A stretch of 64,000 nt of DNA from positions 8,432,001-8,496,000 of the forward strand of contig NZ_CP082164.1 of the NCBI RefSeq assembly GCF_023101685.1, given 5' to 3'. Under the pieces are notes generated by a model. That model was not told where the DNA came from and ran no database searches. It saw only the letters and a program-made list of their open reading frames with translations. Source of the stretch: Bradyrhizobium sp. 186 (lineage in GTDB: Bacteria; Pseudomonadota; Alphaproteobacteria; Rhizobiales; Xanthobacteraceae). Made by a program: the position numbers and the translations under genes. Positions 34,963-61,599 of the stretch are shown one piece after another. Each line of letters begins with the position of its first letter. Position 1 is the stretch's first letter.

Positions 34963-34991
34963 TTGAATCCGACGTTAGGGTCAGATTGCAG
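34963..34991 (+). repeat. dispersed 28-bp element, degenerate copy
   Basis: Starts TTGAATCCGACGTTAGGG and continues TCAGATTGCAG. It aligns with the copies at 59551 and 61291 with one inserted base and a few changes. Similarity with the 59551 copy goes on beyond the core (TCTTCT). Confidence 0.55.
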
Positions 34992-35145
34992 ATCTTCTGA
35001 CAATTCGCGACAATCTGCGCTCGCTCCAACACTCCCCGATGGGCAGTAAGAAACGCGAATGTCTCAAATCCTCAAGGTCCCGCCGCTCGCTTCTGTCACG
35101 ATGATCGGGGCTCCCGGAGCGCCCTGCTCGATATCGAACTCGAGC

Positions 35146-38100
35146 CTAAGACGTTGAAGAGACCTGTTCCGACCGATCCACGCCCTCCGGCGCAACCGGC
35201 ATGCTGAACTGAAAGACGGCCCCGCGAGGATCATTGGCGCCCGCCCACATCCGGCCTCCGTGCGCCTCAATAATAGAATGGCAAATGGCCAGCCCCATGC
35301 CCATGCCTTCGGACTTGGTGGTGTAAAACGCCTCGAACACGCGGTCAGCGCTGTTCGGATCGAGGCCTGGACCCGTATCCCGAAAAGTGACCACTACGTT
35401 ATTCGAGTCATCTGTCCGCGCACTGATCAGTAACTCGCGGTCACCTTCGTTGATCTCCCTCATCGCCTCGATGGCGTTCGTGATCAAATTGAGAATCACC
35501 TGCCGGACCTGGACGCGATCTGCCCGGACAAGCGGCAACGCCTCAGTCCGTCGCGTTTGCACCCATACATCATTTTTCGCAAGTTCCGCGCGAACTAGGG
35601 CCAGCACCTCTAAGATCAATTCGTCAATTGCGAGAAGCTCCGTTTGCATAGGAGCCTTATTCATAAGAGCGCGGATCCGACGGATCACGTTCCCTGCACG
35701 CATACTGTCACGCACAATCAAACCGAAGGTCTGCCGAACTTCTTCCAGATTTGGCGGTTGAGCACCGAGCCAATTTAGCCCCGCCCCCGCATTACTGCTG
35801 ATCGCGGCAATCGGCTGGTTGACCTCATGGGCGATTGAGGCGGCCAGCTGTCCCATTGTCGTGATCCGATTGGCGTGTGCCAGCCCCATCAGAGTCTCGC
35901 GATACCGTCGTTCGCTTTCACGGGCTTCCGCTTCCGCTCTCTTTCGCTCTGTCAGGTCGAGGACGAAGCCAACACCTTGGTCGTCTCGCGCATCGAATAC
36001 GGCGAGGCCAATTAGCACCGGCACGCGGCTGCCATCCTTGCGGACATACTCTTTCTCGAACTGCTGGACAGCTCCGGTCCTTCTTGCTTCTGTTCCAGCA
36101 TTCAGTGTGCGCTCGTGCCATTCTGGCGGTGTCAGGTCGAGACCGTTCACTCGCCCCGCGACGAGATCCTCTCGGTCGTATCCAACCATCGTGAGGAAGG
36201 TTTGATTTGCCTCGATGATCTCGCCTCCTTCGCGAATGATAAATATTCCGATGATGTTAGCGTCGAGTAAGCGCCGGATTTTCGACTCCCGTTGCTGCAC
36301 TTCGCTGTACAACCGGCTGTTTTCCAGCGCTGTTGCAGCTTGCGAGGCAAGCATTTTCAGCACGGAGTTGCGGGCAGGCGAGAATATGCGCGCGGCGAGA
36401 TTATTCTCCAGATAAAGTACGCCGATCAGCTTGCCCTGCGTGATCAGTGGCAGGCAAAGAATAGAACGCGCTTTGCGCTCGCGGATATACGGATCTTCCG
36501 CAAATGAAGGCTCGGCGGCAGCATCTTCGAGAATGACGTTTTCGCGGACACGTAGGACGAAATGCAGCACGGACTCGGGAAGCGCCATCGGAGTTACGGG
36601 CTGTTCATTCACCTTTACAAGCAGCGCATCCGCTACCGTTGCGGCTTCCGCCTCGATCCGTGGCTCGCCTCCATGCAGCAGAATCAACAAACCTCGTTCG
36701 GCGCCGGCCTGCTCAATGGCAGTCCGCATAAGCGTGTCGATTAGTTTTTGAAGAACAATCTCGCCGGAAATCGCCTGCGACACTTTTGTCACCGTCGCGA
36801 GATCAAGATGCTCAACCGGAGCTCCGATCCTCATGCCATTCACGGCTGGAGTGGTCTCCTCATGGCTGAGATGGGGATTCAGCTCGTCGAGCTGACGCAC
36901 TTTGCCATCAGCTCCCCAACGAAGGTAGCCGCGCCGCGCGTCCTGCAGGTAAACCCGGGAGATTCTGTCAAAACCGCGCGCAGCATAAAAGCGCGCTGCA
37001 AGCTCGCAAGCGATTCCCTCGTGGTGGGCGAAACCGTTACGTGCTGCGGTCTGGATTGAGTGTTCATACAGTCGCATTGCGTCTGCATCGCGGTATTCGA
37101 GCCTTGCAATTTCAGCGCCGACCAAGGCAGCCCGATTCTCGAAATTTTCGGGGCAATTCGTCGCCCATATCTGCAGCTGTCTGTAATGGGCATCAATGAT
37201 ATCCCGATGTTGCTGTTGTTCGCTTTCGCCTGGCTTGTCGCAATAACATGAGTGAGACAGCGCACCATAGAAGTGAAACTCCGCGATCAAGGGCTCTGTC
37301 GGCATGGTCCATAATTTGGGCTCCGCCTTGGAGCGAGCATCAACAGCCGCAGCATAATCGCCGGCTAGAAATCGTGCCTGAAGTTTGCGGATCCAGTAGA
37401 CGGTTTCGCTAGGTGACAGCTCCGGACTCCGTGCCAACGATCGCTCGACCTCTAGCTCGTCAAATTGTTGGTCATCCAAGCAACCGAATGAGCGCGTGAG
37501 GCCGCGCATGCTTCTAATGATTGCGAGCTGAGCGGCTACGGTATCAGCAGCAAACTGAACCTTTCTATTCCGTATCGTAGCAAAGCTTTTCTCTATCTCG
37601 TTCTGTACCTCTTTCAGGGGATCTCCGGCCATCATCATATTTGAGGTTAGATGAAGCAAGCTGTACGCCTCATAGATGACATCGCCGCTGCTGACCGCAG
37701 CTGCGAGCGCTCGCCGAATCAAAACTCGGCCACCTCTTAGGGGCTTCGTCCACGGGATCACGTTGCACCCGAAGGCCAAATAGACGGGAGCCCGAAAGCG
37801 GGAGAACTCACCGCGATCAACCAGGTCGCAAGCAAGACGACCAAATTTGTCAGCTGCTTGGTAGTCACCGAAGCGCCCGGCCAAGATTCGGCCTAGCCAT
37901 GCGTAATGGGCGCAAGAAGCATCAGTGTTGCCGTATTCGAGGCTGATGGTGACAGCTCTGCAGATGACCAAAGCGGATAAATTGGCGTCCGTGAAACCTG
38001 CGGGCGGAAGAATGCGCGTCAAGACGGCAAGCGTGGCAAGCGTGGTCTGATCTGTCATTGCAGGCAAACTAGCAAGATCCTCGATTGCGTCGGGCAGCTG

Positions 38101-40716
38101 TGACCACATCCGCTGATATTCGGCCAATGTTTCCTGGTCCGTCGGATGCTGCGACCACTCGATCCCGACGTCGTGAAGATATTCGAGCCCTGTGAGCACT
38201 GCCCGCCCGTGCTGACCGAGCGTCAAGTAAAGATCGACCCGCAAACATGCGACCGTTGCTCGCTGGGGCGCGTTCAAAGCGCGCTTCGACAGTACGGACA
38301 GGAGGCTCTCTGCAATGTCCAGCTGGCCTACCAAGAATTCGCATTCAGCCCGGCTTGTCTCCAGTGCAAACGCGAGTTCGTGGCGCCTTCGCCAAGAGTG
38401 CTCCGCGAGCAGCGCAGCACCGACGGTGAAATATGTGAGTGCCGAGGCGTAGGCCGCCGACGCCCTGGCACGCTGCCCTGCGACCAAATTCAGCTCTGCG
38501 AGCTGCTCACGCTCCTGACCGGAGGCAATTAGCGCGACACCTCGATTGAGTTGGCTGACGATGTCGAAGATAGCCACTTCGCGTTTGTGCGCAGGGACGT
38601 GTGCCGCCAGCATCCGACCGATCCGCAGATGGGCAGGAGCGCGCGAGGATTCCGGCACCAGCAAGTAGGCCGCCTCTTGAAGGCGATCGTGGAGGAAGCG
38701 GTAGGCTGTTCCGTGGCGCGCGATCAGTTCCTGCCGGATCGCCGGCCACAGGGTCGCATGCACCTGCTCCTGCGAAATTTCGAGCACGATCGCAAGCTCC
38801 GCCGTCCCGGCGATGTTGCCGAAACAGGCCAGCTGTTGCAGCGCGTCCTGCGTTTCCTCGGGCAGGCGGATGAGCTTGCCGAGCATCAGATCTACGACGT
38901 TCTCGGTGTACGCTTTTGCGTGAATACGCTCGAGATCCCATCGCCAGCGCGCCGACTCGTGATCGAACGTCAACAGCTGCTCTTCGGCCAGTTCAGAAAG
39001 GAATTGAATGGCGAAGAACGGATTACCCATCGTCTTCTGATGCACCAACTTTGCAAGCGGGGCAGCGCGTTTTGGTCCGCAGCGAAGGGTATCCGCGACT
39101 AACTGCGCGACATCGTCTGCAGTGAGCGGCGAGAGCGTGATCTCCTCGAAATTTACGTCGGCTCTCCTGATGGAGTCGAGCTTGCGTTTGAGTGGATGGC
39201 CTGCATCAAGTTCGTTGCTGCGGTAAGCTCCAATGAGCAGCAGGTGCAGATCCGACTGGGTCAGGAGATCCTCGATCAAGTCGAGCGTTGCGGCATCATG
39301 CCACTGCAAATCGTCGAGGAAGAGCACCAAAGGATGGGTTCGCCGGGCGAACACGCCAATAAAGCGGCGAAGCACCAGCTGGAAACGAATTTGCGCTTGC
39401 CGGGCTGGAAGCTCAGCAACCGCGGGCTGCTCGCCAATGATCAGGCTCAGATCGGGGATCAATTCGACCATCAGTCGTCCATTCGCGCCGAGCGCCTCCC
39501 GGAGCGCTTGCCGCCAGGTGGCGAGTTCGCCCTCACTTTTGCTGAGAAGAGGACGGACAAGACTCTGAAACGTCTGCACTAGCGTCACATAGGGAACGTC
39601 GCGTTTCAGTTGGTCGAATTTGCCTGACACCAACTGCCCGCGCGAGGGCACCAGTGCTTTGTGTAGCTCCTGGACGAGCGAAGACTTACCGACACCGGAG
39701 TAACCGGCGACGAGCACCAACCTCGGCGCGCCGCTCTTCACCGCGCGATCGAAAGAGGCAAGCAAAGCCTCGATCTGAAGGGCTCTGCCATAGAGCTTCT
39801 CGGGGATGAGCAACCGATCAGGTGTGTCGTCTGTGCCGAGCTCAAATGGGTCGATGCGACCGTGGTTGGCCCATGCTGCGAGACAGTGTTGCAGATCGTG
39901 CTCAAGGCCAGCGGCAGTCTGGTAGCGTTCCTCGGCGGTTTTCGCGAGGAGTTTCATCACAATCTGAGATATCGGCTCCGGGAGGTTTTGCGATTTCTCG
40001 ACGGGCGGTATTGCTTTTCTTGCAATATGACAATGGATCCACTCCAAGGGATCTGAGCCCGTGAACGGCAGCGCGCCGGTCAGCATCTGATAGAATGTCA
40101 CGCCAAGTGAATAGAGATCACTGCGACAATCGACCGAGCGATTCATTCGTCCGGTCTGTTCGGGCGCCATGTAGGGCAGCGAGCCGGCGATGAACTCGGC
40201 AGGCTCAGGCGGCACGCGCTCGCGGGAAAGACGGGAAGCCAGACCAAACCCAGTGAGTCGCGCCTGTTCGTCAGGACAATTGACCAGAATGTGAGCGGGT
40301 TTCAGGTCCTTGTGGACCAAGCCGTGCCGGTGAAGCTTGCCCGCGGCCCTCGCGATGCCAACAGCGAGGCGCAGGAAGCGCTTGGGCTCCATACGGAGCC
40401 CGAGTAAATTTAGCAGTGGCTCGCCGCATGGATCCTCCAGGATCAGCATAGTCCGACCAGCTTCCCGGATGAGTTCCAACGGCCGCACCGCCCATGCCTC
40501 GTCTAGCTCCTCCCTCAGCTCATACTCATGGGCGAGGCGGTCGAGCGTCGCTGGGTGTTCCGCGATGGGCCGCACGACAAGCACGACAGCCCTGCTGCCG
40601 TGGATTTGCCGGCGCCACGCACGGCAGAACGCGCGATCACCATCCTCCCACAGGGGCTTGATGTCACTGTCGAGATTCGAGCCGAACAAAGTTCGGCTGA
40701 GGGGGTCCCGCGGCAT
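35146..40716 (-). CDS. giant Ser/Thr-kinase - AAA ATPase - GAF - PAS - histidine kinase
   Basis: The product has 1856 residues. An N-terminal protein-kinase fold has the catalytic loop HKDLKPAHIL at 135-144 and GSLPYMAPEQTGRMNRSVD, but the DFG metal motif is replaced by TGFG (155-158), a change I know from other members of this family. Next comes an AAA/STAND-type ATPase (P-loop GYSGVGKSSLVQE near 335, Walker B LVLFLDDLQWHD), then a long helical TPR-like region to about 1270. A GAF domain (VLYLENNLAARIFSP), a PAS domain (ANIIGIFIIREGG to FVLDLTERKRAEAE) and a FixL-like histidine kinase follow: SIAHEVNQPIAAIS with the phospho-histidine near 1630, NLITNAIEAM, DTGPGL, GMGMGLAICHSI. It is probably a cytoplasmic multi-input sensor. 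The partner may be the NodW-like regulator at 43588, whose type fits this kinase class. Confidence 0.93.
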   Translation of the reverse strand: MPRDPLSRTLFGSNLDSDIKPLWEDGDRAFCRAWRRQIHGSRAVVLVVRPIAEHPATLDRLAHEYELREELDEAWAVRPLELIREAGRTMLILEDPCGEPLLNLLGLRMEPKRFLRLAVGIARAAGKLHRHGLVHKDLKPAHILVNCPDEQARLTGFGLASRLSRERVPPEPAEFIAGSLPYMAPEQTGRMNRSVDCRSDLYSLGVTFYQMLTGALPFTGSDPLEWIHCHIARKAIPPVEKSQNLPEPISQIVMKLLAKTAEERYQTAAGLEHDLQHCLAAWANHGRIDPFELGTDDTPDRLLIPEKLYGRALQIEALLASFDRAVKSGAPRLVLVAGYSGVGKSSLVQELHKALVPSRGQLVSGKFDQLKRDVPYVTLVQTFQSLVRPLLSKSEGELATWRQALREALGANGRLMVELIPDLSLIIGEQPAVAELPARQAQIRFQLVLRRFIGVFARRTHPLVLFLDDLQWHDAATLDLIEDLLTQSDLHLLLIGAYRSNELDAGHPLKRKLDSIRRADVNFEEITLSPLTADDVAQLVADTLRCGPKRAAPLAKLVHQKTMGNPFFAIQFLSELAEEQLLTFDHESARWRWDLERIHAKAYTENVVDLMLGKLIRLPEETQDALQQLACFGNIAGTAELAIVLEISQEQVHATLWPAIRQELIARHGTAYRFLHDRLQEAAYLLVPESSRAPAHLRIGRMLAAHVPAHKREVAIFDIVSQLNRGVALIASGQEREQLAELNLVAGQRARASAAYASALTYFTVGAALLAEHSWRRRHELAFALETSRAECEFLVGQLDIAESLLSVLSKRALNAPQRATVACLRVDLYLTLGQHGRAVLTGLEYLHDVGIEWSQHPTDQETLAEYQRMWSQLPDAIEDLASLPAMTDQTTLATLAVLTRILPPAGFTDANLSALVICRAVTISLEYGNTDASCAHYAWLGRILAGRFGDYQAADKFGRLACDLVDRGEFSRFRAPVYLAFGCNVIPWTKPLRGGRVLIRRALAAAVSSGDVIYEAYSLLHLTSNMMMAGDPLKEVQNEIEKSFATIRNRKVQFAADTVAAQLAIIRSMRGLTRSFGCLDDQQFDELEVERSLARSPELSPSETVYWIRKLQARFLAGDYAAAVDARSKAEPKLWTMPTEPLIAEFHFYGALSHSCYCDKPGESEQQQHRDIIDAHYRQLQIWATNCPENFENRAALVGAEIARLEYRDADAMRLYEHSIQTAARNGFAHHEGIACELAARFYAARGFDRISRVYLQDARRGYLRWGADGKVRQLDELNPHLSHEETTPAVNGMRIGAPVEHLDLATVTKVSQAISGEIVLQKLIDTLMRTAIEQAGAERGLLILLHGGEPRIEAEAATVADALLVKVNEQPVTPMALPESVLHFVLRVRENVILEDAAAEPSFAEDPYIRERKARSILCLPLITQGKLIGVLYLENNLAARIFSPARNSVLKMLASQAATALENSRLYSEVQQRESKIRRLLDANIIGIFIIREGGEIIEANQTFLTMVGYDREDLVAGRVNGLDLTPPEWHERTLNAGTEARRTGAVQQFEKEYVRKDGSRVPVLIGLAVFDARDDQGVGFVLDLTERKRAEAEARESERRYRETLMGLAHANRITTMGQLAASIAHEVNQPIAAISSNAGAGLNWLGAQPPNLEEVRQTFGLIVRDSMRAGNVIRRIRALMNKAPMQTELLAIDELILEVLALVRAELAKNDVWVQTRRTEALPLVRADRVQVRQVILNLITNAIEAMREINEGDRELLISARTDDSNNVVVTFRDTGPGLDPNSADRVFEAFYTTKSEGMGMGLAICHSIIEAHGGRMWAGANDPRGAVFQFSMPVAPEGVDRSEQVSSTS

Positions 40717-40852
40717 TTGCCCGCCCGGTCAATAAGGACTGAGCCAAAACCTGACACATATGGGGCGAGCTTGTGAAGGGAATTCGCAAAACGGCGCGAG
40801 TACCGATCAAGGCCGCCAAAGAGTGGACCGCGGCACGCCAAGGTGCGACTTG

Positions 40853-41953: not shown

Positions 41954-42313
41954 TCATCGACTCTGAACCACAGCATCAAGAGCAGATCTGCAAGCCATTG
42001 TGAGCGAAACCGCGCCCATAACTATTCTCTTCATTCCTGCTCCCATTGATGGAGCAACTGACCCGCGACAAAAGGCACCCCTGATGCTCACCGAGCGCCG
42101 TATAGGCCCTCGCTGATCGGAATGCCGCTCGCTGCGGTTCGCAGGAGGGCGATTGCCGGCCGTGCGAAGCCGATAGATCCGAGAGAGTTCTCGCTGCTTG
42201 AACCGCTGTTCAAGCAAGGCGTAGGCTACCCCAAAACCGGTGAAGAGAATTGCAATTAAAATGAAGTACAGCGGAACGCCTTCTTTGCCAATTCGATAGA
42301 TCCACGCCGGCAT
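41954..42313 (-). CDS. hypothetical small membrane protein
   Basis: The product has 119 residues. ATG 42313 gives MPAWIYRIGKEGVP, one strong membrane helix LYFILIAILFTGFGVAYALL, then a basic cytoplasmic stretch EQRFKQRELSRIYRL. The remainder has no feature and may not be real. The ATG lies at the very end of a minus-strand copy of the dispersed element (42311-42342), which may supply its promoter or leader. I know no family for it. The frame also extends upstream without other support. Confidence 0.35.
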   Translation of the reverse strand: MPAWIYRIGKEGVPLYFILIAILFTGFGVAYALLEQRFKQRELSRIYRLRTAGNRPPANRSERHSDQRGPIRRSVSIRGAFCRGSVAPSMGAGMKRIVMGAVSLTMACRSALDAVVQSR

Positions 42314-42342
42314 CGTACAACCTGACGCTACGAACGATTCAA
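42311..42342 (-). repeat. dispersed 28-bp element, minus-strand copy
   Basis: Read on the minus strand: TTGAATCGTTCGTA, then GCGTCAGGTTGTACGATG. It shares GTCAGGTTGTACGA with the copy at 42931 (opposite strand), and TTGAATCG plus GTAGCGTCAG with the copy at 59551. Its last three bases are the ATG of the small membrane ORF. Confidence 0.7.
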
Positions 42343-42474
42343 GCCCTTCCTGGCCGGCACGAAGTAGCAGGGAGTCACGACCTACTCTGCCTTGCTGAGC
42401 GAGCCTCAGTTTTGCCACGCTGGTTGCTTCATTGGAGGCAGCATCACCACGGATGTACTGGCGATGTGGGCGAA

Positions 42475-42930: not shown

Positions 42931-42957
42931 TTGAATCGCACCTTGCGTCAGGTTGTA
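42931..42957 (+). repeat. dispersed 28-bp element, plus-strand copy
   Basis: Reads TTGAATCGCACCTT and then GCGTCAGGTTGTACGA. Compared with the copy at 61291 it differs at about five positions. It lies 88 bp before a short hydrophobic ORF at 43045. Confidence 0.65.
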
Positions 42958-43587
42958 CGAAGTCGGTGCAAGGTGCTTTCCCCAACCTCGCAAAGAGCAA
43001 CTCACAGGCGCTCTGACGACGCAAAAAGAAGAGTTCGTGGGCTGATGCCGCTGCTACTCGTTTTAATGTCTATTTTCCTTAGTACGGGTGCGATAGTCTA
43101 CGCCGCTTGCCGATCTCAACGCCGGCGGGATCGGCGCATGCACAGGCACAATCGCGCCAATTCGCTCAGCTCGCGCCCCCGCATTCAACTACCAAAGCGA
43201 CGGGCATTCTGATCCTTCAGCCGCATAATGAGCCGTCCGCTGCAGCCTCACTCGCGAAGGCCAGGCGACACGCGCCGCCGCTAAAGCGAGCGCCTCAAGT
43301 TCTGGATTCGGTGCTTCTCGATCGGCTACTGATCGATTTGATCGATGCCGCGGGGCCGATCCAACGCGACGGCGGACAGACGCGAAAGGCAGTTCTCGAC
43401 CAGTCGGGCGGTTTTTGCTAGACTTTCCTGTAATGCGTCACGCTGGCGCGAATGGCTGACCAGTCACATACCTGGAAAATTTCAAAGATTTGCACTGCGC
43501 GAAAAGTCCTCGAAAGCCTATGCGATCAATCAAAGGTCGTAGTGAGGCAATAAGTCTACTGTAAATCGTACAAGTGAGGCTCTTATC

Positions 43588-44271
43588 GTGACCAAGCGCT
43601 CTGAACCCCGTAAGGAAGCCCCAAACGTCGTCGGGCCTGAGGTGAGGCCGAGCGTCTGCGTCGTCGACGATGACCTCTCAATGCGCGAATCGCTGGTCAA
43701 CCTATTTCGTTCGATCGGTCTAGATGTCGTTGCTTACGGATCGGCCCGGGAAATGCTCCAGAGCGAGCTCCCTGATGTTCCTAGCTGCCTTGTGCTTGAC
43801 ATCAGGCTGCCGGGATTGAGCGGCCTTGAGCTCCAGAATGAGTTAGCCAAACTGAAGATTCACATTCCCATCATTTTTATCACCGCTCATGGCGATATTC
43901 CGATGACCGTCAAAGCCATGAAGAGTGGAGCAATCGATTTTCTCAGCAAGCCGTTTCGCGATCAGGAACTACTCGATGGCGTAGTCGCAGCTATCGAACA
44001 GGATCGGAAGAGACGAGGTGTAGACAAGGTGGTCAGCAGGCTGCAGTCCTTGTTTGAGGCCCTAAGTCCACGAGAGCAGGATGTGTTGAAACTGGTCGCC
44101 GCCGGCCTATTGAACAAACAGGTAGCCGCGGAACTCGGGCTCGCCGAGATTACAGTCAAAATCTATCGCGGCCACGTGATGAAGAAGATGGGAGCTCGAT
44201 CGCTAGCCGATTTGATCAGGATGGCTGAGAGGCTGGGAATTGGGACCGACCGTTTCAGGGTACAAACCTAA
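43588..44271 (+). CDS. NodW-like response regulator (FixJ family)
   Basis: The product has 227 residues, the length of Bradyrhizobium NodW. The receiver has acidic residues at 27-29, phospho-aspartate D71 (CLVLDIRLPGLSG), T in ITAHGDIPMT and K in LSKPFRD. A LuxR-type helix-turn-helix follows (LSPREQDVLKLVAAGLLNKQ, then GLAEITVKIYRGHVMKKM). NodW is phosphorylated by NodV and activates nodulation genes in answer to plant flavonoids; whether this copy does so is inference. No NodV gene is adjacent; the nearest histidine kinase is the divergent 1856-residue protein, whose kinase core is of the FixL class that pairs with such regulators. All receiver residues are present. Confidence 0.88.
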   Translation: MTKRSEPRKEAPNVVGPEVRPSVCVVDDDLSMRESLVNLFRSIGLDVVAYGSAREMLQSELPDVPSCLVLDIRLPGLSGLELQNELAKLKIHIPIIFITAHGDIPMTVKAMKSGAIDFLSKPFRDQELLDGVVAAIEQDRKRRGVDKVVSRLQSLFEALSPREQDVLKLVAAGLLNKQVAAELGLAEITVKIYRGHVMKKMGARSLADLIRMAERLGIGTDRFRVQT

Positions 44272-44310
44272 GTATGATTTTACAATTTCGTCGTACACGC
44301 GCACCCTTCT

Positions 44311-44334: not shown

Positions 44335-44362
44335 GCCTTCGCCCAACTAAGAACAGGTCGTC

Positions 44363-44752
44363 TTGTCTAGGTATTCAACTGTTTCCGTTGTTGACGACGA
44401 TCCTTCGATTCGTGCCGCACTGAACAACCTTTTGAAATCGCAGGGCCACATCGTTCATACGTTTGCATCGGCTGAGGAATTCTTGCGGTCGTCTCAATTG
44501 AACGACACGTCCTGTGTCATTGCAGACGTGCAGATGCCCATGATGAGCGGCTTTGAACTTTTGGAACAGATGCGAGCCCAGGGCCACGCTGCACCATTCA
44601 TCTTGATGACTGCCTTCGCAGATGATCGCACGCGAGCCCGCGCGTTGAGCGCGGGCGTAACCGGTTTTTTTGCCAAACCCTTTGCCGACCTGGAGTTGAG
44701 CGCCTGCCTCGATGTAGCGCTTCGCGAGCATCGGGGTGGAACGAACGCGTGA
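44363..44752 (+). CDS. CheY-like single-domain response regulator
   Basis: The product has 129 residues from a TTG at 44363 (MSRYSTVSVVDDD). It is a receiver domain only, with acidic residues at 11-13, D55 (CVIADVQMPMMSG), T in LMTAFADD and K in FAKPFADLE. It lies downstream of the NodW-like gene, so both may be fed by the same kinase. No output domain is present. Its stop overlaps by 4 nt (GTGA) the start of a small membrane ORF. Confidence 0.85.
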   Translation: MSRYSTVSVVDDDPSIRAALNNLLKSQGHIVHTFASAEEFLRSSQLNDTSCVIADVQMPMMSGFELLEQMRAQGHAAPFILMTAFADDRTRARALSAGVTGFFAKPFADLELSACLDVALREHRGGTNA

Positions 44753-44931: not shown

Positions 44932-45920
44932 CAAGGCGCCTTTGGTATGATCGCGCAATCAGACGAGGCGAGGCCCTCATCGCTTTAACGAAGGAGCGCC
45001 CTACCTTCACTGCTAAGATCCTTGCTGAGCTTAGCGCGAAAGTGCCACGGCAGCGGCTTGCCGGCAGGATCTCGTTAGAACAAAGAATTCACCTGAAACT
45101 TGTGCGACCGCTCCAGATAGGTCGGGCACCGGAGTTTGTGGGAGAAGGACGCGACGATCGCGGCCAAAATCCCGCAGTCTGTACGGACGATCGCTTCGGA
45201 ATTCACAGAAACCGCAACGACTGCATTTTGGATGTTGGGCTTTCGAAGGATCGAGTGGTGTATGCCAAACTCGCCAACCTTCGGCGGGCCGAAGCACCCG
45301 AAACCTACGCATCCGTTGCAAGGGCAACACAAATGCCACTGGTCGAAGCGATCTCAAGCCACGCCTTTGCTGCCGAACGCATCCACGCCGACCACTTTCC
45401 GGCGCCGGTCACGGCCCAAACGCATGGCCCAAAGCGGCGGCTCTGGACGCGCGATAAGCCCGCGTGCCGGGCCAGATCCGCGGCGGCCGTGTCACTTCTA
45501 CTCGCCGCGAGTGAGCGTGGGGAAGCAACACACGCTTCCGGCTGACGGACTCCGCCGTCGCGGGGAGCGCATCGGCCCCTCTGGTCGCGATGAACTTTTT
45601 CGGCCCACATACTTCCCCGTTTCCAAGCTAACCGCGCAGTATGCGCAAATTGTTCGATCGCGCGCGGCTAAGCAAACCTGCCCGCGAAAGACGACTTAGC
45701 CGGGGGCCGTCGCTGGATGGGGACGAAACTACTAGACATAGTAGCTTTGTTGCGCCTGGTTCTCAGGTAAGCCGTTGGAGGTGATTTTCAGACGCGCTAC
45801 GCATAGCCCAAAGGACGCCGAGAGTGCGCCGGAACCGTGCGCTCATGGTCTGCCAATCCTGTACGATGTTGGCCGCGCGCTTGTTCGTCGGGCAGATTTT
45901 CTTGTCGAGGAGACGACCAC
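44932..45920. other. 1-kb stretch without a recognisable gene
   Basis: Several 100-190 codon frames are open on both strands between 45031 and 45699, but they overlap one another, have no family motif and no good starts. GAGGAGA at the right end is the ribosome-binding site of the aminotransferase gene. Confidence 0.45.
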
Positions 45921-47210
45921 ATGGTTGGAGCACACGGGGCGCGCAAAATGAAGACAGTCGAAATGCTAGAGTCCAACGTGCGCTCGTACTCACGTTCCTT
46001 TCCTGCTGTCTTCAGCAGGGCGCGCGGCTCGATTATGTTCGCAGAGGGTGGCCGAAAGGTCATTGACTTTCTGTCCGGCGCTGGAGCGCTAAACTATGGC
46101 CACAACAATCAGGAGATCAAAGCGGCAATCAGCGAGTATCTGGAGTCGGACGGGGTCGTCCACGGCTTGGACATGGCCACTCCAGCAAAGGTCGAATTCA
46201 TGGAGACCTTTAGCTCTGTCATCCTTCGTGAACGGAATCTTTCCTACCGCTTTCAATTTACGGGGCCTACGGGAGCTAACGCTGTTGAAGCAGCTCTAAA
46301 GCTCTCGCGTAAGATCACAGGACGTCACAACGTCATTTCCTTCACGAATGGATATCACGGCCAAAGCTTGGGAGCCATAGCCGCGAGCGGTAACCGGTTT
46401 TACCGCAAAGCCAGCAGCATTCCCTTATCCGGCACAACGTTCATGCCCTATGATGGGTATCTTGGCTCCGCTCACAGTCCGGCGGATTACGTGCGAAAGG
46501 TATTAATGGACGAGAGCAGTGGCACTGATGTTCCAGCCGCCATTCTCGTCGAAACCGTGCAAGGAGAGGGAGGCATTAACGTCGCCGGTAAGGAATGGTT
46601 GCAGTCAATTCAGGCTTTGGCAAAAGAGGTCGGAGCTATTTTCATAGTTGACGATATCCAAATGGGCTGTGGCCGTACAGGCGAGTTCTTCAGTTTCGAG
46701 TTCGCTGCGTTGTCGCCAGACATTGTTGTAATGTCAAAATCGCTGAGTGGGTACGGTTTGCCACTATCGATGCTCTTGATCAAAGAAGCGATTGACGCAT
46801 GGGAACCAGGCGAGCACACGGGGACGTTTCGAGGAAACAACCTTGCACTCGTTTCTGGCAAAGCGGCTTTGAATCTGTATTGGCGCAACCAGACGTTCTC
46901 GCAACAGGTCCGACGCTTGGGCGCATTTATGCGGCGTCGACTCGATGCCATCGGGCACCAGCACGGAAACAAGTTTGCTGTTCGTGGACGGGGCATGGTA
47001 TGCGGATTCGATTGCAAAACGACCGAAATCGCAGAGGCGACGTCACATAGAGCGTTTGAGAAGGGACTGATTATCGAGCGATGCGGACCGATCGATCAGG
47101 TTGTGAAGTTCTTGCCTGCACTTACGATCGACCAAGAAACGTTGGGACAAGGCCTAGACATATTTGAGGAGTCATTGACCGAAACGTTGAATTCAGCCCG
47201 AGCAAGCTAA
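45921..47210 (+). CDS. EctB-like class III aminotransferase (diaminobutyrate--2-oxoglutarate type)
   Basis: The product has 429 residues from ATG 45921, with GAGGAGA 8 nt upstream. EctB hallmarks are dense: LESNVRSYSRSFPAVF, FLSGAGALNYGHNN, FTGPTGANAVEAALKL, VETVQGEGGINVA, IFIVDDIQMGCGRTG. The pyridoxal-phosphate lysine is in MSKSLSGYGLPLSML, and HTGTFRGNN is also conserved. The family moves amino groups between glutamate and aspartate semialdehyde to make 2,4-diaminobutyrate. Neither ectA nor ectC is next to it, so ectoine synthesis is not indicated. A role in making a diaminobutyrate- or serinol-like unit of a secondary product is possible but unproven. The N-terminal half of the rhizobitoxine enzyme RtxA is a related aminotransferase, but the sulfhydrylase half is absent. 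Confidence 0.85.
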   Translation: MVGAHGARKMKTVEMLESNVRSYSRSFPAVFSRARGSIMFAEGGRKVIDFLSGAGALNYGHNNQEIKAAISEYLESDGVVHGLDMATPAKVEFMETFSSVILRERNLSYRFQFTGPTGANAVEAALKLSRKITGRHNVISFTNGYHGQSLGAIAASGNRFYRKASSIPLSGTTFMPYDGYLGSAHSPADYVRKVLMDESSGTDVPAAILVETVQGEGGINVAGKEWLQSIQALAKEVGAIFIVDDIQMGCGRTGEFFSFEFAALSPDIVVMSKSLSGYGLPLSMLLIKEAIDAWEPGEHTGTFRGNNLALVSGKAALNLYWRNQTFSQQVRRLGAFMRRRLDAIGHQHGNKFAVRGRGMVCGFDCKTTEIAEATSHRAFEKGLIIERCGPIDQVVKFLPALTIDQETLGQGLDIFEESLTETLNSARAS

Positions 47211-51074: not shown

Positions 51075-51947
51075 CTACCTTGACTTGGAAGGCGTCCAGT
51101 TTACGATCAAGTCGCGCAAGCCGTCCGGAAGGCGATATGACTCCTGCGGCGCAGGGAATGCTGCGCTACGGACATCAGCTGCCCAGCGCGAGAGGCCCTC
51201 CTGCAGCAGCTGACGGCCCTCTACATAGACACGCACGAATTTGGGATGATGACTTCCTGCGAGCCCCAACACGTCGTGGAACACTAGAACTTGACCTGAG
51301 CAACTTGGACCCGCTCCGATGCCAATCGTTGGTATGCTCAGAGATTCAGTCGCCCGCGCAGCGAGCTCGGCCGGGATGCCCTCGAGGACAAGAGCAAAGC
51401 ATCCGGCCTGCTGTAGCTGGTGCGCATCGTCAAGCAGACGTAGGGCATCGTCCGCGGTTCGACCTTGTAGCTTGAAGCCACCCATCGCGTTGACGCTTTG
51501 TGGCGTGAGACCAAGATGACCCATCACGGGAATTTCGCAATTCACCAAGGCTCGAATCATCTCGACACGCTTACCCCCTCCCTCAAGTTTGACGGCGTCT
51601 GCGCCACGCTGCAGGAAGCCTCCAGCGTTGCGTATCGTGTCCTCGGGACTGACATGAAAGCTGAGAAACGGCATGTCAGCTACAAGCAGGGCGCGAGGCC
51701 TTGTTCGCGCGACCGCCTCCAGGTGGTGATTCATCATCGCCATGCTGACGGGTAAAGTGTCATCAAACCCAAGGCATACGTTGCCGACGCTATCGCCGAC
51801 AAGAATGACGTCGACGACAGGATCGGCGATACGTGCCGTTACCGCATCATAAGCCGTGGTCATGACAATGGTGCGCCTTTCCTCCTTGCATCGTTGCAGA
51901 ACTGGAATCGTGACGCGTTCAACTGACAGCTGCGAAATGTGGCTCAT
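51075..51947 (-). CDS. panB: PanB, 3-methyl-2-oxobutanoate hydroxymethyltransferase
   Basis: The product has 290 residues from ATG 51947 (MSHISQLSVERVTI). Motifs include IVMTTAYDAVTARI, VILVGDSVGNVCLGFDDTLP, the Mg-binding and substrate region ADAVKLEGG, PVMGHLGLTPQSVN and IPTIGIGAGPSCSGQVLV with the catalytic glutamate in ALVLEGIP. It makes ketopantoate for pantothenate and CoA with methylene-tetrahydrofolate. On the same strand as the bio genes but 840 bp after bioA, so probably a separate unit. panC is not in the window; panD is in the bio operon. Confidence 0.95.
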   Translation of the reverse strand: MSHISQLSVERVTIPVLQRCKEERRTIVMTTAYDAVTARIADPVVDVILVGDSVGNVCLGFDDTLPVSMAMMNHHLEAVARTRPRALLVADMPFLSFHVSPEDTIRNAGGFLQRGADAVKLEGGGKRVEMIRALVNCEIPVMGHLGLTPQSVNAMGGFKLQGRTADDALRLLDDAHQLQQAGCFALVLEGIPAELAARATESLSIPTIGIGAGPSCSGQVLVFHDVLGLAGSHHPKFVRVYVEGRQLLQEGLSRWAADVRSAAFPAPQESYRLPDGLRDLIVNWTPSKSR

Positions 51948-52785
51948 GTTCGATCTGATCCGGCCCCCGTATGTCTCTGGAAATGGCCTTCCCCTTGGAA
52001 GAGCAAAAGGCATCTGTCAATCGGGAGGCCGAAAAGGCGCGTCACCGAGAACTTGGAAAGCACGAAGTTTCCAATGATTGCGCGGTCAGCAAACAAGATC
52101 TTTCAAGATGTCCTCTGCGCGGTGGTTCTGGGACTGGCCATCCAAACATTCTGCGCGTCAAAACGGCGGCCTGGAGACGACGCACGCGAGCGGCGACAGT
52201 GGATGTGCTTCTGAGGCTCCGATCTACGTGTCAAAGCCGCTGTCGGCTCCTTAAGGCGGAATGTCTATTACCTCTCGCTGCTGACAAGGATGGGCTATGG
52301 CGCTTAGAGCCGCGGCTTCGGCGGACTGCAGGCTCCGCAAACGACCGCGATCCAGGCGAGGGAGATAGGAAAGATGTACCAGCGCTCGCACGGCTGCCGC
52401 AAACTCCGGAATGCGGATGACGTGTCCAGCATCTTCGCGTCCGTAGACGCTTGATAAGACCTGCCGTCCAGGCAATCTCTTCTAATCGAAATAACGGCGG
52501 AACTTCCGCAACAGGCCGTCACCAATGGACGCATAACTTCATGACTTTGTACCAAATTCGCGCAGGCATCCACACAGTGAACACGCAACCAATGGCGATG
52601 ACGCGATCGGACTCAAACCGGACGCGCAATGACACTGTGGACCGGTGCCCGGCCGGCAGCACCCACATTGCAGATGCGAGGTAACAATCATCCATTTCGT
52701 AGGCGTCTATGGCAAGGCTCTCTCAAGTCGTTCGGGAAGCCGACGACAGCTCAGAATCCTTGATCTTGCGCTGCCGCGCGCGTCT
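51948..52785. other. stretch between bioA and panB
   Basis: 840 bp on which I see no panC, bioZ or other product. A plus-strand frame of 149 codons and minus-strand frames up to 94 codons lack motifs. It may contain the promoter of panB. Confidence 0.45.
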
Positions 52786-54051
52786 TCAAGCCAGCGCATC
52801 GGCAGCGTCACAGATGCCGGCATATATTTCGTCCAGGTCTCCTGCTGTAACACAATATGGCGGCATCACATAAATCGTATTACCGAGTGGACGCAGCAAG
52901 AGATTGCGGTCTTTAAAGAAGGCGTGAAGCCTCGGGCCGACGCCTGCGAGATAGCCGGTATCTCTCGTCTTCAGATCGAGTGCTGTGATGGTGCCGCTAC
53001 GGCGAACGTTTGCAAAGCGCGGATCGGCGCGGAATCCTTCAATTGCCTGCTCTTGCATGGTTGCGACCGCAGCGATGCGCCGGTGACATTCCTGGTCTTT
53101 CCACAGATCCAGGTTAGCTTTGGCGGCGGCACAGGCCACCGGATTTGCCGTATACGAACTCGAGTGAAAGAATGTGCGCGTACGGTCTTTTGAATAATGG
53201 GCATCGAAAATCTCTGCCCGGCAGAGTGTCACCGCGAGCGGCAGCGCCCCTCCCGTGAGACCCTTCGAATAGCACGCTATATCTGGCACAACATTGGCCT
53301 GCTCACAGGCGAAGATTGTTCCGGTGCGGCCCCAGCCCGTCATGACCTCATCGGCAATGAACAGAACGTCCGACGCCTCGCAGATCCGCTTCATCTCTCT
53401 TAGCACCCAAGCTGGGTACATCAGCATTCCGCCTGCCCCTAACACCAGAGGTTCGACAATAAAGGCTGCGGGATTTTCGTTCCGACATGCTGACTCAAGC
53501 GCATCGAGCGTCGCCCGCTCACGACCGCACGCAGGGAACGGGATTGAGGTCACGTCGAACAGGAGAGGTCCGTACGCCGCGTTGAAGACACCGCGGGCAC
53601 CAACTGACATCGCGCCGAACGTGTCCCCGTGATAGGAGTGCTGCATGACAACGATGCGTGTTCGCTGTTCGCCTATATTGTGCCAATAACCGAGTGCCAT
53701 CTTCAAGGCGACTTCCACGCTGGCTGAGCCACTGTCCGAGTAGAACACGTGGTCCAAGCCTCGGGGTGTGAGTTTCAAAAGGAGCCGAGCGACCTCCTCG
53801 GCCGGATCATGCGTGTAGCCGGCGAAAATGATTTGGTTCAGCTTGCCGGCCTGTTCCTGAATCGCGCTCACGATCTGCGGATGGCAATGGCCGTGAGTGA
53901 CGACCCACCAGGATGAGATTGCATCTATGATTCGATGATCATCCGCAGTGTAGAGATAAGCACCATCGCCACGCACAACCTTGGTCATCTCGTTGTGAAG
54001 AGCATGCTGCGTGAATGGATGCCAAATTGGCCACGTCTTGTTTGGCTTCAT
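52786..54051 (-). CDS. bioA: BioA, adenosylmethionine--8-amino-7-oxononanoate aminotransferase
   Basis: The product has 421 residues from ATG 54051 ([18 protein letters not shown]). Family motifs: [66 protein letters not shown] and the pyridoxal-phosphate lysine in [16 protein letters not shown]. It makes 7,8-diaminopelargonate using S-adenosylmethionine as amino donor. The ATG overlaps the bioD stop (ATGA), so the two are translationally coupled; the longer frame to 54144 would run deep into bioD. Last gene of bioB-panD-bioF-bioD-bioA. Confidence 0.96.
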
Positions 54052-54680
54052 GGCGTGAAATCGCCGGGAATAAACGAGCCTTTGAAGACAGCCTGTAGGC
54101 TCTCTGGCGTCAAAGGAGAAATCCAGGGCAGCCGTCCTAACCAACGCACCCGCGCGATGTCACAAATTGCGCTCTCAGTCTCAGAATTTCTTTCCCCGAT
54201 GAATGCGATCCCAAGAATGTCGATCTGGCGCTTTCGCAAGGCCTCTATTGAGAGCAGGGAGTGATTGATGGTCCCGAGTAGCGTGCGCGCGCAAAGCACG
54301 ACGGGAAGTCGCCACCGCTCGAAGATGTCGATGTAGAGTGCACTAGAATTCAGCGGCACCATCAGCCCGCCAGCGCCTTCGATGACGAGCGGTCGCTCCC
54401 CGGTATGCGGCAGGACGAGCGAATCGGGGTCGATGCGAATTCCGTCTATTTCGGCGGCATGATGCGGGGAAGCGGGCGTTTTAAGGCGGTAACGCTCCGG
54501 AACGATCCGATCGGCCGGAAGACCGCTCAGTCGTACGACCTGCTGGCTATCGGTCTCTCCTTCAACACCGGCCTGAATTGGTTTCCAATAATTCGCGCTG
54601 AGAAGATGGGCAAGGCCTGCCGAAAAGACAGTTTTGCCGATTCCTGTATCTGTGCCGGTCACCACGATCCGCTGACTCAT
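54048..54680 (-). CDS. bioD: BioD, dethiobiotin synthetase
   Basis: The product has 210 residues. N-terminal P-loop [15 protein letters not shown], then YWKPIQAG with the conserved lysine, [10 protein letters not shown] and [12 protein letters not shown], all typical of BioD. It closes the ureido ring with CO2 and ATP. ATG at 54680 overlaps the bioF stop by the ATGA arrangement, and the stop overlaps the bioA start in the same way, so three enzymes are coupled in order of the pathway. Confidence 0.96.
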
Positions 54681-55831
54681 CGAGATCCGCCCCTCGTCTC
54701 CTCAGCGAGGGCATCGAGCATCGCACGCACCTCATCCTCTCCCACGTTGAGCGTCAGTGAAATTCGTAAACGGGCCGTGCCGGCCGGCACCGTTGGCGGT
54801 CTGATTCCTCGGATGTCAAATCCGCGAGCCTGTAGCGCGGACGCTAGCCTCATGGCGCGGGCATTCTCGCCAACGATATAGGGCAGGATCTGCGAGTTCG
54901 AAGGACTTCTCTCGCCTCGCGCAACCATCTCCCGATGCGTGAACGCGACAAGCTTCGCCAGCCGCTGTTGGCGCTCCGGCTCCTCCTGCAGGATCAACAG
55001 AGCCTCCCGTACGGCCACCGCCATTAACGGCGAAGGGGCGGTCGCGAAGATAAACGGGCGACAGCGATTGATTATGAAGTCGCGCAGCACGCCAGAGGCG
55101 GTGACAAGCGCGCCGGCAGCTCCCAGCGCCTTGCCGCAGGTATGAATAACCAGGAGATTTTCGCGTCCTTCATAGGGCGCTGTGAGCCCTCGCCCCTGCT
55201 CGCCGTAAACGCCGGTGGAATGAGCTTCGTCCACAACCAAGAACGCATCGTGCCGGTCCGCGATCGCGAGCAGGTCTTCAAGCGGTGCGAAATCGCCGTC
55301 CATGCTGTAGAGGCTCTCGACTACGATCCAGACCTGCCCCGCTCCGCCCGCGGCACGCCAGTCGCAAATTGCGCTTTCGATAACCTGCGGGTCGTTATGG
55401 GCGCTGATTCGAAACGCGGCTCGGCCAGCTCGTGCTCCTTCGTGAATGCTGGCGTGAACCAGGGAATCAAGGACGAGCAGGTCGTCCCGTTGCGGCAACG
55501 TTGTCAGCACCGCAAAATTTGCGACATAACCACCGCCGAAGAAGAGCGCGGTCTGCGCGCCGAAGAACCGCGCCGCTGCTGCTTCGAGGCATTCGTGCTC
55601 CTCGCAGTTGCCGCGCAGAAGCCGTGATCCGCCGGCTCCGATCGGAGTACCGGCTTCGAGCGCGGTGACGATGGCTTTTTTCATGCGCGGCGCGCTCGCC
55701 AGGGCCAGATAATCGTTGGATGAAAAGTCAATCCCGGTGCGCGGCCTGAGACTCCGCAGGCGGTCGTCGTCTTTAAGCGCATCTAAGCCTGCCGCATAGC
55801 TGGCAACTTTACCCGCAATGATGGAATTCAT
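54677..55831 (-). CDS. bioF: BioF, 8-amino-7-oxononanoate synthase
   Basis: The product has 384 residues. Alpha-oxoamine synthase motifs: [58 protein letters not shown] and the pyridoxal lysine near [14 protein letters not shown]. It condenses pimeloyl-ACP or -CoA with alanine, the first step of the common biotin pathway. Starts 86 bp after panD and overlaps bioD by 4 nt. No pimelate-forming gene (bioC, bioH, bioW, bioZ) is present in the window, so the precursor must come from elsewhere. Confidence 0.96.
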
Positions 55832-55917
55832 TCTTCACTCGCTGAGCAAGGATGGGCGCCGCAAAACTCCCAACTGGCCGCCAAGGACAGGGTCTTACGG
55901 CGGTTAGCTTGTTGGAT

Positions 55918-56271
55918 TCAAACCGGCACGATGCGATTTTCTCGATCAACCAGCACAATGCGCGGCCTGAAGATTCTTGCATCCGCCTCGTCAAGTGAGG
56001 CGTATGCAACGATACTTATCTTATCTCCGGGCATCGCCAGTCGCGCCGCCGCACCGTTCACGTCTACCGTGCCGGACCCTTGTGGCGCTTCTGTCACAAA
56101 CGTTGCAAAGCGTGCCCCCGTCTCGAGGTTGTAGAGTTCGACGCGTTCGTTGATCAGGATACCGGCCGCGTCCAGCAGTGCGCGATCAATCGAGATCGAG
56201 CCTTCATAGTGAAGGTCGGATTCAGTTACCGAGGCGCAATGAATCTTTCCCTTCATCAAGACAATCTGCAT
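55918..56271 (-). CDS. panD: PanD, aspartate 1-decarboxylase
   Basis: The product has 117 residues. The self-cleavage site G24-S25 lies in HYEGSISID, which after processing gives the pyruvoyl group. [32 protein letters not shown] and PRIVLVD are typical of PanD. It makes beta-alanine for pantothenate. It lies between bioB (51 bp upstream) and bioF (86 bp downstream) on the same strand and so seems part of the biotin operon, a mixed cofactor cluster. Length is normal. Confidence 0.95.
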
Positions 56272-56322
56272 TTCTTACCTACGCTGATGGCTTGCGCGCA
56301 GCACGCCTATTGTTCTGATGGC

Positions 56323-57306
56323 TTAAGCGAGTCCAGACGTAATGCCGAGCCGGGCTAGCAAACTTGCATCACGGTCAAGTCGCGGGTTTTTGGTAGTCAG
56401 CAACACATCGCCGACAAAGATGGAATTCGCACCCGCCAAGAAGCATAGGGCTTGGAGTTCATCAGTCATGTACTGGCGCCCGGCGGCCAACCGTACGACG
56501 CTCTTGGGCATCATGATCCGCGCGGTCGCCACCAGGCGCACCAGTGCAATCGGATCGGGACGCTCCGCCGTGACCTTCACCGGCACGCCATTCACCTCGT
56601 TCCACAGGTTGATCGGTACACTTTCCGGATGGTTGGGAAGATTGGCGAGCAGTACCAGCATGCCGAGACGGTCATCGACGTGCTCACCCATGCCAATAAT
56701 GCCGCCGCAGCAGACTTTGACCCCCACCTCGCGCACGCGTGTAAGAGTGTCGATCCGATCTTGCAAGGTCCGGGTAGTGATGATGCTGCGGTAGAACTCC
56801 GGCGAAGTGTCCACGTTATGATTGTAGAAGTCGAGGCCGGCGTCGGCGAGCCGTGCGGCTTGCTTTGGCGTGAGCATGCCGAGCGTTACGCACGTCTCCA
56901 TGCCAACACGTTTAACGGCGGCAATCATGTCGCAGACCTGACCGAGGTCGCGGTCCTTTGGACTGCGCCACGCCGCGGCCATGCAGAAGCGACTCGCCCC
57001 GGCCGCCTTGGCGCGCTGCGCGGCGGCGACCACATCAGCGCGATCCATCAAGCGGGTCGGCTTCAGGCCAGTGTCGTAATGCACGCTCTGTGCACAGTAG
57101 GCGCAGTCTTCAGGACAGCCGCCGGTCTTGATGCTGAGCAGGCTTGCGGTTTCGACGTGGTTTGGGTCGAAATTGCCGCGATGAACGGTCTGGGCCTGAA
57201 ATAGGAGCTCGGCAAACGGCTGCGCGTAAACCCCTTCCGCCTCGGCACGTTCCCAGTCGCGGCGGACCGACGCGCCGTTGCGGCCGCTATTGCCTTCGAC
57301 TTCCAC
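56323..57306 (-). CDS. bioB: BioB, biotin synthase
   Basis: The product has 327 residues. Radical-SAM cluster CxxxCxxC at C64, C68, C71 ([13 protein letters not shown]), SIKTGG before it, then [36 protein letters not shown] and [10 protein letters not shown] with the cysteine of the second cluster. The C-terminal arginine of AAGRQYM follows. It inserts sulfur into dethiobiotin. The start is the GTG at 57306 with a G-rich ribosome-binding site (GGGGGG). NVDT in place of the more usual NLDT is a mild change. First gene of the cluster; its promoter must be just upstream, but I see no clear operator. Confidence 0.96.
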
Positions 57307-59356: not shown

Positions 59357-60185
59357 GCGGAAGACGATGCAATTTTTAGATCAAGAAAATGCGACACATG
59401 CCCTACGTAAGATCCCGTAGGCTGGCTTTCGCAAAAGCACCTCATTTGCCCCGTTATCTGCCGACCGCTCTGTTAATGTCTGAGATGCGACAAGCCGCTC
59501 GCAGCAAGCGCGGCGAGGCGCGCGAAATGCGCGACTCTCGACATTTGGGCTTGAATCGTACGTAGCGTCAGATTGTAGGGTCTTCTTACAGCTGGCGAGC
59601 GTGCTTGGCCGTACAACAGCTTCCGGGCGACACAATTTTGAGTGTGTCATTTGGCGCCCAGATTGCAGAACGCCCGCGCTGTCCCGGACGCCGCAGTGAG
59701 GCCGCCTCGGCGAATCATTGCAACGTGTCGCGATGAAGCCAGGCTGCAGGAGAACCGGATGCTAAGATCGGAGCAGCATCGTCGCGTGGCGATTGCCCGA
59801 TTTGATAGATTGCTCACGCAGAGGTCGCCGTCCGGAGATCGGGGCCTCGCAGCTCAGAGTGGAATGGAAGTTGGAGGCCATACTCATCTTACGTAGCCGT
59901 GATGCGGCCGCGGCGAACCTGCAATAGCTTGCTCACGCCGAAACAGGTAGCTGTAGGCATACACGGTTGCCAGCATTCTCGCCAGAGATGCGTGGTCGCT
60001 CATGCCGGAGCCCCCTTCGGGTGCCCGGATTGCCTCCGTCGCCGCCTCCATCATGTTTTTCGTATCCAAAGACCGGCAACACGGCCTCCGGAGTAGCAAT
60101 GACTTCTGCAGCTTTGGCTACCAAGCAGTCGTTCAACTGAAGGCCATGGAGCGCGCGAGGTCAGACCACAAGGAAATCTCGATCT
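59357..60185. other. stretch without a recognisable gene, containing a dispersed-element copy
   Basis: 830 bp with no identified product. It holds the dispersed-element copy at 59551. Confidence 0.45.
59551..59580 (+). repeat. dispersed 28-bp element, copy
   Basis: TTGAATCGTACGTA then GCGTCAGATTGTAGGG. It matches the copy at 61291 at 27 of 30 positions, same orientation, 1.74 kb apart. No ORF with a strong start follows directly. Confidence 0.75.
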
Positions 60186-60452
60186 ATGCTCTGCCCGAAA
60201 TGTCACACAGATAACTGGTGCGAGGTTGCAATGCACGATCCCTGGAGCGGCCGACCAGTGATCAACTGCAATACTTGCGGTGAGTATGCCGAGTACGATT
60301 GCCTCCAGCGCAAAACAGCGCACGCGATCATCGCAGCTACCTTGGCCTGTAACGTTAGCATAGAGGACGAGCGCGATCCGCGGGCGGTTGCTGACAGGAT
60401 TTTGGATGCGCTGGAGAATGCCGGCCTAACAATCGCTCGCGCCTCAAGATGA
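60186..60452 (+). CDS. hypothetical protein with a zinc-ribbon-like N-terminus
   Basis: The product has 88 residues: MLCPKCHTDNWCEV, then VINCNTCGEYAEYDC. Two CxxC pairs about 26 residues apart suggest a zinc ribbon; the C-terminal part (DPRAVADRILDALENAGL) is helical. I do not recognise the family. The composition looks like a real protein, but no neighbour supports it. Confidence 0.4.
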   Translation: MLCPKCHTDNWCEVAMHDPWSGRPVINCNTCGEYAEYDCLQRKTAHAIIAATLACNVSIEDERDPRAVADRILDALENAGLTIARASR

Positions 60453-61599
60453 ATGGGAGGAACGTCGATCGGCGCCGCTACGAGGCCCCGCCCGCCCATC
60501 AGAGAGCATGACCAACTGCGCCGCTCGTTCCAACAGCCATTTGATTGCCTGCAAAACCGCCGTCTTTCCCCCGGCCGATCTGGAATTGCAGTCGCCATAG
60601 CAACTCTTTGATACCAACAACGATTGTAGCAAACGCGCCAATCTGGACCCAAGTGCGATGCTCTCAACGGGACCAGGACTGAGTACCGCTTAGGCGCGGG
60701 CTTCCAACGTATGAAGCCCGGCAAATCTTCCCACAAGTATCGAACCCGCGATGATCAACCCGGTGTGGCCTGCACCTGACGGCGCCTTTCGAGGTCCATA
60801 GTTCAAAGTTATCTAGAACGGCGAAGTCACTGTTGGGTGCCTTGACGGGAGTTTGGCTCATTGACCAGACTAACGCGCTGCCGATTGATCTCGTTTCCTA
60901 TTCTGCTCAGCCGCCGCGGCACCGACAAGTCCCGGGAAGCAGCCCCATTATGATGGTGACAGCGGGAGAGCTCGGCTGGATAGCCAAAGCCAATTCGCGC
61001 AGATTCGAGAGAGCATTCTAGCCATGGACGATTGATTCAGGCGCCGAGGCAGCTCCTATCCACACATTTCAAGTAAACTTGAGGGATTCGCTTGGTCACT
61101 CGTGGCCAGCGACGAGCAGCCTCACAGCTGGGCGTAGCTATGCGCGCACTCGAGCTGCGCGTTCCGCAGACGACGAATACCGAAAGCCAACTGCCTTGGT
61201 GAAGCGCCTCCCGCCCTCCTCGCCTTGCGGCTGGCTCCTGGCGAACGAATACGAGTTCGACATATTCACGCGATAAGCCCGCAGGGGGGATTGAACCGTA
61301 CGTTGCGTCAGATTGTAGAGTGCCCAGCTAGGGAGCACCAATGTTCGGTCGCTTCAGAATTCCTGTGCTAAAGCGGAGCAGGACGATCGCTTGCGATGAG
61401 AGGTCTTCTGCCAAAGCGGCTGAGGATCGCGCTCACTGCGAAGAACGCTGTTTCTGTCCTGTCCACGCAGATCGCCGAGCCGTATGAAGACAAGATCGCC
61501 CGCATGTAAGAAGGACCAATCCAACTTTGGAGGCTTCGAAATACGTTTGCGGGCAAAACCAGCCGCCGCGAGATTGATGCGGTATCCCGGAGCGGTCAT
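60453..61599. other. stretch without a recognisable gene, containing a dispersed-element copy
   Basis: 1.15 kb with no identified product. It holds the dispersed-element copy at 61291. A 47-codon frame from ATG 61341, 20 bp after that copy (starting MFGRFRIPVLKRSRTIACDE), has four cysteines but no other support. Confidence 0.4.
61291..61320 (+). repeat. dispersed 28-bp element, copy
   Basis: TTGAACCGTACGTT then GCGTCAGATTGTAGAG. Of the five copies this and the one at 59551 are closest to each other and to the consensus. Confidence 0.75.

Follow-up and report, generated by a model that had tools for sequence, protein, structure and literature searches.

The window analysed here, a 64,000-nucleotide stretch of Bradyrhizobium sp. 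186 (contig NZ_CP082164.1; C1:8432001-8496000 in our genome coordinates), carries five copies of a 31-base element, together with two-component regulatory genes and small open reading frames (ORFs) (Table 1). Copies A to D fit one ungapped weight-matrix model with scores of 42.6-55.3 and are the sole window positions scoring at least 10. The fifth copy fits solely if an extra central base is allowed (score 31.4; 40 Markov windows gave at most 16.0), so we class it as diverged, with a spacer of 20 bp, and its function is doubtful. All five copies listed in an earlier note on this DNA are thus present, four strong and one diverged. That note also had one copy touching an ORF start; the ATG at 42313 does fall within the -10 box of copy A, and since the equivalent frame in the related locus L144 ends after three codons, it does not make a convincing gene start. 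An Rfam search of the window returned no matches. Judged by its sequence, the family very likely consists of MerR-type promoters, and NolA, the nodulation regulator of MerR type, is the best candidate for their regulator.

Table 1 Copies of the element and other features in the window (window coordinates).
Feature	Coordinates	Strand	Boxes and dyad	Weight-matrix score	Remarks
Diverged fifth copy	34963..34994	+	20-bp spacer; poor -10		One added central base
1856-aa Ser/Thr kinase / AAA ATPase / GAF / PAS / histidine kinase protein	35146..40716	-			Start 1.6 kb beyond copy A
Copy A	42312..42342	-	-35 TTGAAT 42342-42337; dyad 42339-42319; -10 TACGAT 42317-42312	51.3	Oriented to the 1856-aa kinase protein
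Copy B	42931..42961	+	-35 TTGAAT 42931-42936; dyad 42934-42954; -10 TACGAA 42956-42961	55.3	Oriented to the response regulator at 43588
Candidate 55-aa small membrane protein	43045..43212	+			Lies after copy B and ahead of the response regulator; 6 sites have a similar ORF
Response regulator, 227 aa, receiver and LuxR-type helix-turn-helix	43588..44271	+			Distance to copy B 657 nt; resembles FixJ but scores under the curated FixJ cut-off
Receiver-only protein	44363-44752				Near the FixJ-like regulator and the 1856-aa kinase protein
Diaminobutyrate-2-oxoglutarate transaminase	45837-47210				TIGR02407 EctB, above cut-off
ORFs resembling panB, bioA, bioD, bioF, bioB	51075-57306				Resemblance by eye only
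Copy C	59551..59581	+	-35 TTGAAT; -10 TAGGGT 59576-59581	51.6	No clear gene 3'
Copy D	61291..61321	+	-35 TTGAAC; -10 TAGAGT 61316-61321	42.6	Conserved 78-aa ORF follows
78-aa ORF, GTG start	61600..61836	+			A related ORF follows the element at 16 sites; no above-cut-off Pfam match

Across our own genome (G000, 10.77 Mb) we found 16 sites at up to three mismatches, clustered near 1.03-1.10, 8.40-8.54 and 9.01 Mb, against none for a reversed-pattern control; the genome-wide core count proposed in the earlier note as a check therefore lies above chance. The element is present in 84 of 146 Bradyrhizobium genomes, with 1-26 sites each and 815 in total, and the reversed control was empty in all 146. 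When one genome per species was searched with the exact pattern, at least 120 stretches with 131 sites were obtained, the listed matches being 119 from Bradyrhizobium and one from Mesorhizobium albiziae. Among 397 genomes of the order, three had sites, all of them Bradyrhizobium.

The anatomy of the element was taken from 127 of the listed sites with sufficient flank plus the 16 own sites, giving 143 sequences, 89 of them flank-distinct; the figures in this paragraph refer to the matches listed and our own sites. Columns fixed by the search pattern carry no conservation information, whereas free columns do. Conservation covers about 31 bp and, ahead of them, an A-rich trio; the logo reads AAA from -7 to -5, C at -1 and TTGAATC-N2-ACGT-N-GCGTCAGRTTGTAGG-N-T. 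Position 30, free in the pattern, is T at 69 of the 89 flank-distinct sites, and C at -1 occurs at 89 of 100 listed sites (about 3% noise). TANNNT stands at offset 25 in 69/89; within offsets 20 to 39 no other position has it in more than two, the TA being fixed by the pattern. These data support a predicted promoter with a -35 box CTTGA(A/T), a 19-bp spacer and a -10 box TANNNT at positions 25-30. The earlier note had read TTGAAT with a TTGTA-like box about 17 bp on as a possible promoter; the sequence supports a promoter, and the data favour TANNNT, which overlaps the final two bases of TTGTA, as the second box.

The spacer contains a partial inverted repeat, AATC-NN-ACG-N3-CGT-NN-GRTT, centred on position 13, with weak covariation between positions 5 and 21 (p=0.033). 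A spacer of 19-20 bp that holds a palindrome is the arrangement given for MerR-family promoters in the available text of PMC9909328, and both features, the box distance and the dyad operator within the spacer, are found in the predicted promoter here. The regulon operator suggested in the earlier note thus gains support from sequence as a MerR-type promoter, probably one for NolA. Its other suggestion, a mobile promoter or small repeat, is not supported. In favour of a small mobile repeat or an insertion-sequence end, the copies are scattered, point in either direction and lie in a region that holds transposase remnants. Conservation drops off outside about -7 and +36, and the flanks are unconserved beyond about 40 bp, although no insertion-sequence library search was made; moreover, from species to species a copy is found at a fixed place in front of the same genes (nolA, nodD2, trpD and ttsI). 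A mobile repeat is consequently very improbable.

The link to NolA starts from the nolA gene itself. Our own nolA encodes 239 aa with PF13411, PF00376 and PF09278, and its homologues named NolA by their sources share 70-77% identity. Its ATG, preceded by GAGG, lies 46 nt after the first base of an element. Among the 30 upstream regions closest to our own gene (the best 30 of 82, many from near relatives), all 30 carry the element, and in 28 TTGA stands exactly 46 nt before the ATG. Diverged relatives are a better test than these close genes. In G507, a genome of another family without a nodA hit, a nolA relative of 53% identity (C11:741185-741883; L238, L241) has the element TTGAACCTCACGTGACGTGAGGTTGTATCCT 58 nt before an ATG; this copy, missed by the search pattern and found by reading the upstream DNA, is a perfect 9-3-9 dyad, whereas the Bradyrhizobium dyads are partial, and it is the only site within the 19 kb surrounding the gene. 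On plasmid p53363 of B. guangxiense, an element lies 38 nt upstream of the annotated start of the truncated NolA. In a protein search, NolA-like MerR proteins of about 44-54% identity also appeared in Myxococcota and metagenomes.

A protein search found nolA in 82 of the 146 Bradyrhizobium genomes, all 82 within the 84 that carry the element, and the element is absent from 62 of the 64 genomes without a nolA hit. In the 73 genomes whose nolA match is classed as full length, among them G001 with its internal stop, the number of sites ranges from 5 to 26, with a median of 10. The nine with short or interrupted matches (G017, G036, G043, G047, G061, G095, G096, G106 and G122), most of which retain the N-terminal DNA-binding part, have 1-15 sites. 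In genomes beyond Bradyrhizobium, nolA can be distinguished from the nod region: six nodA-positive genomes of another family have neither a nolA hit nor an element (0/6 for each), while G507 has both and no nodA hit.

Among the genes that follow the element, counted over the 131 sites of the matches listed, a trpD-like gene lies 83-630 nt downstream at 23, a ttsI-like gene 471-1368 nt downstream at 20, nodD 218-380 nt downstream at 15, a 565-aa family at nine, a response regulator 317-1933 nt downstream at seven, a biotin carboxylase at five and nolA at five, with nolA following directly (37-38 nt) at two of them; one site is counted for both nodD and nolA, and 48 sites have none of these genes. 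The nolA sites are under-sampled because the pattern demanded a G that is absent from most of them. A single trpD-ttsI operon was considered and rejected, none of the listed sites having both genes. At 14 of the 15 nodD loci a 314-aa nodD also lies upstream of the element, and since this gene is divergent from NodA in L036, we read the second nodD as nodD2, which places the element between nodD1 and nodD2 in 14 loci.

The ttsI sites raise the question of a tts box bound by TtsI, with which the element shares GTCAG.TTGT; ttsI indeed lies within 1.4 kb downstream at the 20 sites given above. Eight genomes, however, have 8-11 elements and no TtsI match at E <= 1e-60, by which the tts-box reading is largely refuted and retains hardly any probability. 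A nod-box pattern was also sought near the ttsI sites; no similar string was found, and no conclusion was drawn from this.

In our own genome the ORFs downstream of sites encode radical SAM/SPASM, Peptidase_C48, GMC oxidoreductase, aminotransferase, transglycosylase, outer-membrane barrel and TrpD proteins, plus unmatched ORFs, several of them at least 0.5 kb off. The elements at C1:1081508 and C1:8395626 are near-identical and are followed by similar DNA; the ORF after C1:1081508 (975 aa; L192 6049-8973) contains a Peptidase_C48 (Ulp1) domain. At C1:8520539 an element comes behind a nodD1-like gene but is not followed by nodD2, as it is in other species, and this is possibly an orphan site.

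Copies A and B of the window point away from each other: B is oriented to the FixJ-like regulator and A to the 1856-aa kinase protein, the link to the latter being weak. Of five related loci inspected, two (L144, L081) have both copies and three the B copy alone. This neighbourhood brings in the proposal that a FixJ-family response regulator, NodW or the 227-aa protein of the window, binds through GTACGTAG. The motif is within the consensus and resembles the FixJ box, GTAMGTAG; copies A and B flank a response regulator, and one lies downstream at the seven listed sites counted above. Relatives of the regulator, however, occur in 145 of the 146 genomes against 84 with elements, and these paralogues blur a co-occurrence comparison for NodW-like proteins. 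Some element-rich genomes have distant relatives only (G055, with 11 sites and a best E of 1.7e-67), and binding of this kind leaves the 19-bp spacer and the fixed place before nolA unexplained. In addition, NodW is reported to activate ttsI in strain CCBAU53363 (available text of PMC9927474), and the ttsI of p53363 (316 kb) has no predicted site nearby in a matrix scan. We regard a FixJ-family regulator as unlikely.

Published NolA data can be set beside the predicted sites. According to the available text of PMC9927474, NolA activates itself and nodD2 in USDA110, and both of these targets carry the element. The same text reports that deletion of nolA in CCBAU53363 changed 11 genes by RNA sequencing, 10 of them lowered, and names nopP, virK, X268_RS37710 and X268_RS35990 as nolA-dependent. 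Scanning p53363, we found six sites scoring at least 14 (24.3-51.0), against none with a column-reversed matrix and one hit in total with 20 column-shuffled matrices. One site precedes nolA and another precedes hisC and X268_RS37710 (the hisC-LLM pair), so that a gene of B. guangxiense lowered in the nolA deletion sits behind a predicted site. With a match for one of the four genes named, the support is modest. At nolA of B. elkanii and USDA110, the available text of PMC5596368 gives a putative sigma-70 promoter TTGAAT-N16-TTGTAGGCT, which is the element.

Several observations weigh against control by NolA. The dyad is imperfect at most sites and is inflated by the pattern-fixed columns, and at many sites the next recognised gene is 0.2-1.4 kb away. 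Within Bradyrhizobium, nodA occurs in 84 of the 146 genomes, a set identical to that of the element, and nolA is therefore not singled out there. G037 and G073, both nodA-positive, carry one element each, about 1.1 kb upstream of ttsI, without a nolA hit, and M. albiziae has one site with only a 37%-identical MerR match. The transposase gene X268_RS35990, by tag order just past 299 kb, is apparently without a nearby predicted site. As far as the available text of PMC9927474 goes, ttsI is not NolA-regulated in CCBAU53363, whose plasmid is also without a ttsI site, and GST-NolA gave no shift of the nopP promoter in an electrophoretic mobility shift assay; since nopP and virK were not located, the latter result neither supports nor refutes the box. 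A rival reading is a MerR-class promoter under another regulator, or the promoter of an alternative sigma factor; in its favour, three genomes have the element without a nolA hit. This proposal, too, has only a small probability, as the element stands before every nolA inspected, diverged relatives included, one of them in a genome without a nodA hit.

Taken together, we consider it highly probable that the family represents sigma-70-type promoters of the MerR class driven by NolA. From the computed sequence, geometry, gene association and co-occurrence we infer NolA binding, spacer distortion, transcription at each copy and a signal, as follows. A NolA dimer would bind the dyad operator in the 19-bp spacer, and active NolA would distort the spacer, making the -35 and the -10 box usable together by RNA polymerase. 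NolA would act in this way at its own gene, by autoregulation, and at dispersed symbiosis genes, the putative targets being nodD2, trpD, the ttsI region, hisC-LLM and the window genes near the response regulator; regulation of ttsI and of the two-component genes in the window is a prediction.

The wider proposal, to which we give about an even chance, is a NolA regulon spanning the genus, with about 5-26 promoters of MerR type in each genome, which would include, besides nolA and nodD2, ttsI, trpD, the kinase/response-regulator region and many uncharacterised small genes, and have its box and autoregulatory loop also outside the nodulating lineage, where the G507 relative retains both without a nodA hit. 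If true, nodulation control would be coupled to type III secretion through its regulator, ttsI, and this coupling would explain genotype-specific nodulation by NolA. A 1991 title in the reference list of PMC9909328 associates nolA with genotype-specific nodulation of soybean. With a defined 31-bp box, the regulon could be predicted for any Bradyrhizobium genome, and many uncharacterised genes of symbiosis regions would gain a candidate regulator.

As far as the literature searched shows, the defined box and its spread seem new, while the kind of switch was already known. A defined NolA box was not found in the available text of PMC5596368 or PMC9927474, and that of the independent component analysis (ICA) paper on USDA110 (PMC10454721) does not describe the motif; a literature search with core strings matched, by title, only work on buffalo microbiota and cauliflower breeding. 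The accessible part of PMC5596368 states that a NolA site at nodD2 had been proposed by Garcia 1996, so an earlier description of the box is possible, and reports no NolA site in the 250 bp upstream of nodD2.

Compared with known systems, the element resembles the MerR-family promoters of Tn501 merT and of CueR, SoxR and ZntR targets in having an over-long spacer with a dyad. The boxes of the Tn501 mer promoter lie at the same offsets as those of the element. Unlike these promoters, the element has its own operator sequence, and it would serve a dozen or so dispersed symbiosis targets where they serve one neighbouring operon. The nolA promoter in the available text of PMC5596368 has the same sequence, read there as an ordinary promoter and unlinked to NolA. 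The nod box, the tts box and the element are alike as regulon-defining promoter motifs of rhizobial symbiosis regions; the nod box differs in its 47 bp with ATC-N9-GAT repeats, and the tts box is bound by TtsI, whereas the element is also found without ttsI. The FixJ box is similar to GTACGTAG, but in the element this motif occupies the middle of a dyad, within the 19-bp spacer of the predicted promoter.

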